From assembly GCF_014201835.1 (NCBI RefSeq), contig NZ_JACHFH010000012.1, positions 1 through 64,000 of the forward strand: a stretch of 64,000 bases of DNA. The letters are read 5' to 3'. Under the pieces are notes generated by a model that ran no database searches, was not told where the DNA came from, and saw only the letters and a program-made list of their open reading frames with translations. Of this stretch, positions 1-7,868 are shown piece after piece. Positions within the stretch are counted from its first letter, which is position 1; every line of letters begins with the position of its first letter. The DNA is from Pectinatus brassicae (GTDB lineage: Bacteria; Bacillota; Negativicutes; Selenomonadales; Selenomonadaceae). Made by a program: the position numbers and the translations under genes.

Positions 1-94
1 CACGGTGGACACCCTTGCCTTGAGCTATGTGCTTGGCACTATTAACCCACACTCGGGACTTTCACCCGTTAGACTGCGCCCATGCCGGGCGCAC
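1..94 (-). mobile_element. 5' end of a group IIC intron (partial, runs off the window)
   Basis: Read on the minus strand from position 94, the sequence starts GTGCGCCCGGCATGGGCGC, followed by GGGTGAAAGTCCCGA and, near the window edge, GCAAGGGTGTCC. This is the domain I beginning of bacterial group IIC introns; I recognise it by its close match to my memory of the Oceanobacillus iheyensis intron. The 5' splice site falls at 94/95. The intron lies only a few bases behind the terminator hairpin of rqcH (101-137), which is the usual class C target: these introns insert downstream of terminator stem-loops. The rest, including any reverse transcriptase/maturase gene, would lie to the left of base 1 and is not visible. 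Whether it is full length cannot be judged here. Confidence 0.85.
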
Positions 95-100
95 CTAAGC

Positions 101-137
101 AAGAAGGCTGTTCCCATATTTTAGAAACAGCCTTCTT
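101..137 (-). terminator. rqcH terminator hairpin, split from its U-tract by the intron
   Basis: A 12-bp perfect stem (101-112 with 126-137) with a 13-base loop starts four bases past the rqcH stop codon on the minus strand. The run of T expected after the stem is missing: only GCTTAG separates the stem from the intron boundary. The T-run may lie in the 3' exon beyond the intron, outside the window. Confidence 0.75.
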
Positions 138-140
138 AAT

Positions 141-1898
141 TTATTCAATATTATTTTGTTTTAATAATTTAGCCATTTTTTCTTTGTCCGGCGTAATATA
201 CAACGTTTTATTATTAGTAAAAATTACAAAACCTGGTTTTGCACCAGCTGGTTTTTTTACAAATCGGCATTTTGTATAATCAACCGGCACATTTGATGAA
301 TCCTTAGCCTTGGAAAAATAAGCCGCCAAGTTTGCTGCTTCTTCAATTACAGCATCTTCTAGTTCTATTCCCTGTGTACGAATAATAACATGCGAGCCGG
401 GAATGTCTTTAGTATGAAGCCATATATCTGAAGAATGTGCTGTTTTCATGGTTATTTTATCATTTTGGTAATTGTTTTTTCCCACAAGCACTTCTGTACC
501 ATCACTTAATATAAACTTAAATGGTTTTGATGGTGTGATAGCCATACGCTTGCGTTTCTCCATCTGCATATATCCGCCCGCAATCAACTCATTTTTTACA
601 TCAGCCAGCTCAGAAATTGATGATGACGAAAACAAGGCAGCCTCTATTGTTCCTAAGTATTTGATATTTTCACTGCACTCATTAATCTGTGTTCCTAATA
701 TTTTTTCGGCCCGGCGCAGTTTATCATATTTTTGATAATATTTTTGCATATTTTGCACGACTGTCAGTTTCTTATCCATCGGTATAACTATCTGGGCACC
801 GTCAGCAGCATAAATATTGTTAACCTTAATTTCGCTGTCAATATGGTCAATAAACCGATATTGATATGTCATGATATTATCGGCTTTGATTTTTTCATCT
901 TCAGCTTGCTGCGACCTGCTCAATTCTTCCAATAGTTTATTTTTTTTACCGTTTTGTTTATTTATTTCATGCACAACGAATTTTAATAAATGCTCTTTTT
1001 CCGGCGATACATAATCATCGGTCAGTTTATGGCCCATTTCCAGCATCTCACTCATGGTAGCAAATGTCATACTTTCATCATTAGGATAGATATCGAATGC
1101 AAATGCGGCCATTGCAATAACTTTATTGTTTTTATTTTTAACCAGTGTCGGTGTAAATTCCTTTTTCTTATAAATATCAAGTAGTTCCTGCAAGGCATTG
1201 GATAGTGACACATAATCGCTTTCCTCTAAAGACTCTACGGGCATATCCTTAGGCAGTCCTGCCAGAAACAATATCTGCTTAGCCGTTATTGGTCCAAAAC
1301 CTGCTCCGGTATGCAGTACTGCTCGATATATATCTTCACCGATTTTTTCTTTTACATTAGCAATAAATTCATCTTGATGTTCCAATACATCGATACTATC
1401 TTGCTGCGGCGGCGGCATATATGGCCGCTGTGGCAGAATTGTACGCACGCGGCTGCTATTTGTGCCTACACGGCGCAAAGAATCAATAACTATATCCTCC
1501 TGCGTTAATATTATATTACTGTATTTTCCCATTAATTCGATGTATAATTTTTTTGTCACTATTAAACCGCCAGCCCCCAAGGTATCTATTTCCATGATGG
1601 CTGCTCTATCCCTGCCCAACTGATATATCTGGGCAATACGTCCGCCTTCAAGCTGTTTGCGCAGCAGCATGCAAAAAACCGGTGGTTCTGGTGGATTTTC
1701 TATCTGCCGTTTTGTAACTGTCATCGTTGGCATTGCCGGATCTATTGACACATGCAGTACATGCGTCATCCCCGGCAGTCTTACAGAAATATAAATATCA
1801 CTTTTACGCGGCTGAGCGATCTTATCAATACGTCCACCGCTTAAAAGTCTGTTCATTTCATCTATTGATGCATAAAGGGAAAAACCATCCATTCCCAT
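141..1898 (-). CDS. rqcH: RqcH/NFACT ribosome quality-control protein
   Basis: Bacterial homologue of Rqc2/NEMF, formerly annotated as fibronectin-binding protein FbpA/YloA. RqcH binds obstructed 50S subunits carrying peptidyl-tRNA and recruits tRNA-Ala to add C-terminal alanine tails that mark the stalled chain for degradation. The 585 residues show an NFACT-N domain beginning GFSLYASIDEMNRLL, the tRNA-binding Asp-Arg pair at D97-R98 (the position used in B. subtilis), a charged coiled-coil middle at about 270-430, and an NFACT-R domain with DIWLHTKDIPGSHVII at 491-506. Length is normal for the family. A promoter precedes it (1929-1958), divergent from hisD. Its 3' end carries the terminator that a group IIC intron has invaded. 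Function is firm by homology. Confidence 0.93.
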   Translation of the reverse strand: MGMDGFSLYASIDEMNRLLSGGRIDKIAQPRKSDIYISVRLPGMTHVLHVSIDPAMPTMTVTKRQIENPPEPPVFCMLLRKQLEGGRIAQIYQLGRDRAAIMEIDTLGAGGLIVTKKLYIELMGKYSNIILTQEDIVIDSLRRVGTNSSRVRTILPQRPYMPPPQQDSIDVLEHQDEFIANVKEKIGEDIYRAVLHTGAGFGPITAKQILFLAGLPKDMPVESLEESDYVSLSNALQELLDIYKKKEFTPTLVKNKNNKVIAMAAFAFDIYPNDESMTFATMSEMLEMGHKLTDDYVSPEKEHLLKFVVHEINKQNGKKNKLLEELSRSQQAEDEKIKADNIMTYQYRFIDHIDSEIKVNNIYAADGAQIVIPMDKKLTVVQNMQKYYQKYDKLRRAEKILGTQINECSENIKYLGTIEAALFSSSSISELADVKNELIAGGYMQMEKRKRMAITPSKPFKFILSDGTEVLVGKNNYQNDKITMKTAHSSDIWLHTKDIPGSHVIIRTQGIELEDAVIEEAANLAAYFSKAKDSSNVPVDYTKCRFVKKPAGAKPGFVIFTNNKTLYITPDKEKMAKLLKQNNIE

Positions 1899-7702: not shown

Positions 7703-7725
7703 GTATATTGTAAATGAATATGGAA

Positions 7726-7868
7726 CTCATCAAGAGCAGCTGAGGGACTGGCCCTATGACGCTGCGGCAACCATGATTTTATTATCAAACGGTGCTAATT
7801 CCTTTAGGATTAATCCTAGAAGATGAGAGTAAGCTTATAAAAAGCCCTCTTTTCTTAGAGGGCTTTTA
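7726..7868 (+). promoter_or_regulatory. SAM-I (S-box) riboswitch with intrinsic terminator
   Basis: The leader has the S-box core in order: CTCATC (7726-7731), AGAGCAGCTGAGGGACTGGC, GACGCTGCGGCAACC, GGTGCTAATTCC, then GATGAG (7822-7827), which pairs with the first segment as P1. The terminator stem AAAGCCCTCT (7841-7850) pairs with AGAGGGCTTT (7857-7866) and ends in T residues. The segment around 7817-7828 can partly pair with the left half of the terminator, so SAM binding would release the terminator and stop transcription before metK. Class and target match a known and common arrangement. Confidence 0.95.

Follow-up and report, generated by a model that had tools for sequence, protein, structure and literature searches.

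Group IIC introns are known for an insertion behaviour directed at hairpins, of the kind seen at the present locus (PMC4424553; PMC8919778). Class C (group IIC) introns of the B.h.I1 type are described as inserting at intrinsic terminators (Robart et al. 2007, as cited in PMC8919778; reviewed in PMC4424553). Searching the literature on Pectinatus for group II introns returned nothing relevant. The first bases of the window (the whole stretch of 64,000 nucleotides analysed here) present a clean case of this known hairpin targeting. Four adjoining features carry the case:

141 to 1898, minus strand: rqcH, which precedes the hairpin in the orientation of the intron (NFACT_N, E=3.5e-108, and NFACT-R domains).
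100 to 138, minus strand: insertion target, a terminator-like hairpin that rqcH shares with a convergent ttcA-like gene (fold of -24.1 kcal/mol).
95 to 100, minus strand: end of the 5' exon, GCTTAG, with its last four bases TTAG as the presumed IBS1 (TTAG or TTGG in all four intact copies).
1 to 94, minus strand: 5' end of a group IIC intron (the beginning of domain I, 94 nt), with 93-100% identity to four copies in the same genome and 95% to 11 introns of a congener.

The sole match of rqcH in the collection of named genomes is from Pectinatus frisingensis (63% identical), which places the window in a Pectinatus-type genome. Elsewhere in the window, a SAM riboswitch (RF00162, 90.6 bits) occupies 7724-7829 on the plus strand; it is an ordinary S-box leader with a terminator-like hairpin behind it.

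The first base of the intron is window position 94, and the minus strand from 94 to 1 reads GTGCGCCCGGCATGGGCGCAGTCTAACGGGTGAAAGTCCCGAG. The remainder of the intron is missing from contig C12 because window base 1 is also base 1 of that contig, one of 89 in the assembly, with no sequence to its left. The 94-nt repeat recurs at four further places in the same genome, each copy starting directly behind a different hairpin, a recurrence far beyond chance. In the window alone, neither the Rfam search of the window nor cmscan of bases 1-140 gives the 94 nt a significant score for a group II family. Sequence comparison nevertheless confirms them as the 5' end of an ordinary group IIC intron behind the rqcH hairpin, cut by the contig end. 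The preliminary description had read this strand as the beginning of group IIC domain I, and both the repeat in the same genome and the full-length introns of the congener agree with it. It had proposed a search for domains V-VI and the maturase gene to the left of the 94 nt, whose absence would have spoken against an intron; domain V-VI and the C-terminus of the maturase are present at contig starts of the same genome, and the refutation fails.

Full-length relatives are present in the congener (G004), where 11 copies, all of 1878 nt, extend from GTGTG to CGAT. The L052 copy matches group-II-D1D4-3 (RF02001, E=8.7e-30), D1D4-1 (RF01998) and Intron_gpII (RF00029) in Rfam. In this copy, the one of G004 for which the encoded protein was examined, the product is an RT/maturase of 460 aa with RVT_1 and GIIM domains and a TIGR04416 score of 415 bits, above the cut-off. 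GIIM ends at residue 407 of 460, and no Pfam domain, endonuclease or otherwise, is found past it. L052 combines the marks of a group II intron, namely the conserved catalytic RNA domains (I-IV core, V-VI; domain V is also found at C44) and an intron-encoded RT/maturase, with the protein devoid of an endonuclease domain that characterizes group IIC. Four of the G004 copies (L052, L055, L060 and L062) have one 5' exon in common, and three of them also have the same 3' exon, which starts an IS66-type-looking ORF; a mobile element may carry the intron along there. In L060, the 3' flank instead opens with the same 24 bases as that of L057, which suggests recombination or another repeat.

Four intact 5' ends are present in the host genome: that of the window (C12) and those at the contig ends of C32, C41 and C51. 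The fifth copy, on C37, is contig-internal and decayed, with almost all of the RT gene lost. Domain V-VI of one identical sequence is located no more than 300 bases from the start of C13, C44, C50 and C59, with an identical 3' end across all of them, so that four intact 5' halves stand opposite four intact 3' halves. At C44, which probably carries the 3' half of the window copy, domain V-VI scores 46.2 bits against RF00029. The RT and maturase families find no match in the contigs of this genome, where the intron interior is not assembled; the C-terminal 70 residues of the maturase on C13 (80% identical) are the sole assembled part of the intron middle. The near-identical copies have likely collapsed in the assembly, which would account both for the missing middle and for the break at window base 1. 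Contig C47 (L012, G000; 1-356) starts with a second group II domain V, unlike that of the present intron (54.8 bits). The end of an integrase-core (IS3-like) transposase follows directly, in the same frame, and the domain is probably part of another intron within an insertion sequence.

The hairpin at rqcH has a stem of 12 Watson-Crick bp, which rises to 17 pairs in RNA of the rqcH sense once G-U is allowed, and only 0.2% of random 50-mers from the window are as stable. Its position against the insertion point and the 12-bp stem had been described correctly beforehand, while the distance of seven bases becomes 5 nt when the 17-pair fold is taken, or 6 nt (GCTTAG). A scan for consensus terminators gives no match at the hairpin on either strand; by our reading, the tail is at fault on the minus strand and the longer loop on the plus strand. 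The hairpin carries no consensus T-tail in the rqcH sense and is a putative terminator.

In predicted folds, a hairpin precedes the intron by 0-15 nt at 20 of 20 5' exons (5 from the host genome, 11 from G004 and 4 others; four of the G004 exons are one sequence, and the 20 are not all independent). By stability, nineteen of these hairpins rank within the top 0.4% of random window 50-mers, and that of L059 within the top 4%. The insertions thereby lie directly behind terminator-like hairpins, as is typical of group IIC. In each of three species, the presumed EBS1 loop is complementary to that species' own IBS1 (UAGA/UCUA in G004, GGAAC/GUUCC in G040, AUCA/UGAU in G037), which gives the short contact of 4-5 pairs at the 5' exon that group IIC introns use, and it does not pair with the IBS1 of the other species. 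Pairing is poor in the C37 remnant. An EBS1 of CUAA fits all four intact sites of the host genome and is predicted for the window copy, whose loop is absent from the assembly. The earlier proposal that the window site follows the class C target rule is borne out by the hairpins at all 20 sites and by the EBS1-IBS1 covariation in relatives. In G040, from another family, the intron at L063 (69-500) is situated directly behind a tmRNA gene (RF00023, 185 bits) and its hairpin.

On the right flank, two relatives (G001 and G003) have ppaC directly after rqcH; in two others (G002 and G004), a convergent ttcA-like gene comes next, ahead of genes read as ppaC and pcrA. The ttcA-like product has a PP-loop domain and scores 163 bits with the TtcA model, below its cut-off of 272. 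Among the four contigs with 3' halves, C44 alone has the genes found after rqcH in relatives; C13, C50 and C59 were rejected as the other half of the window copy, being without these genes. When the C12 flank is joined to C44 after CTACTCGAT, the ttcA-like frame ends in ...YDKFIHN*, at the same length as ...YDAFMKN* in G002, and its stop codon is put back exactly at the insertion point. If the join is moved by one base, no stop follows. Because of the synteny and the restored stop codon, C12 and C44 are taken as adjacent, the start of C44 being the putative 3' half of the window copy; that introns of the group IIC kind can recombine counts against this join. By synteny, the intron would be seated between the convergent rqcH and ttcA-like genes. 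With the intron in place, the ttcA-like frame ends in ...YDKFIHKSSRS* (HKSSRS* instead of HN*), which points to a changed C-terminal tail of the protein.

In the rqcH sense, the joined empty site reads CCTTCTTGCTTAG up to the insertion point and TTGTGTATGAATTTG beyond it, with no T-run after that point. The suggestions that the intron splits the hairpin from its T-run and alters the termination of rqcH are therefore not upheld: with the intron present, rqcH retains its hairpin, and no T-run has been moved. A change in rqcH termination could also come from replacement of the sequence past the hairpin, and the bases after GCTTAG do change from TTGTGTATG to GTGCGCCC; however, there is no T-run among them in the joined empty site, the U-rich CTTCTTGCTT precedes the insertion point and is retained, and at other sites too the T-run remains upstream of the intron, which makes such an effect quite improbable. 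The gene altered would rather be the ttcA-like one, which on the evidence of the joined flanks appears to have lost its stop codon and now to end about 1.9 kb from the shared hairpin. A further and quite unlikely reading is that the intron, by landing at the shared hairpin, changed both the C-terminus and the termination of this gene, with its transcripts running antisense into the intron and perhaps regulating either of the two. The modest point is that an insertion can spare the preceding gene and yet alter the convergent one on the far side.

Since 94 nt alone are visible and C37 shows that decayed copies exist in this genome, the window copy could be a truncated or decayed remnant of that sort. 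However, its 94 nt are equal to those of C32, and C51 and C41 agree as far as they extend; C37, by contrast, has diverged (97%). A short remnant would not have broken the assembly, which is interrupted here in the same way as at the other intact copies, and the intact 3' halves equal the intact 5' halves in number, one of them at the expected neighbour; a remnant is very improbable. Assignment of the 94 bases to another RNA family or repeat has next to no probability. Its candidate, cow-rumen-3 RNA, is matched by cmscan of bases 1-140 alone (E=0.0023), yet the score of 21.9 bits lies far below the cut-off of 86.7, the match covers the host hairpin, which is outside the repeat, and the full-length relatives score as group II introns; cow-rumen-3 was rejected on these grounds.

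The whole is best explained, with a probability of about 0.96, by a retromobile group IIC intron inserted behind the hairpin shared by rqcH and the ttcA-like gene, with its 3' half on C44. Directly seen over 94 nt, the window copy is presumably full length and mobile. The intron, of about 1.9 kb and coding for an RT/maturase without an endonuclease domain, would have inserted in the orientation of rqcH, selecting the site through the hairpin and through pairing of its EBS1 with the short IBS1 (TTAG). Insertion may have proceeded by reverse splicing and reverse transcription, by analogy with known IIC introns. Near-identical copies would then have broken the assembly at window base 1, leaving the 3' half at the start of C44.

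In comparison with class C introns of the B.h.I1 type, the ribozyme domains, the RT/maturase without an endonuclease domain (PMC4424553; PMC8919778), the targeting of terminator-like hairpins, the short IBS1 and the many copies per genome are all alike, and nothing of substance differs. The window site has its own arrangement, in that the hairpin is common to two convergent genes and the insertion point falls around the stop codon of the opposite gene. The group IIC-attC introns of integrons belong to the same class and also target a stem-loop (PMC4424553), whereas the present introns sit at terminator-like hairpins behind genes, and no integron context was noticed at the sites read. In conclusion, the intron of the window is a new copy of a known kind.
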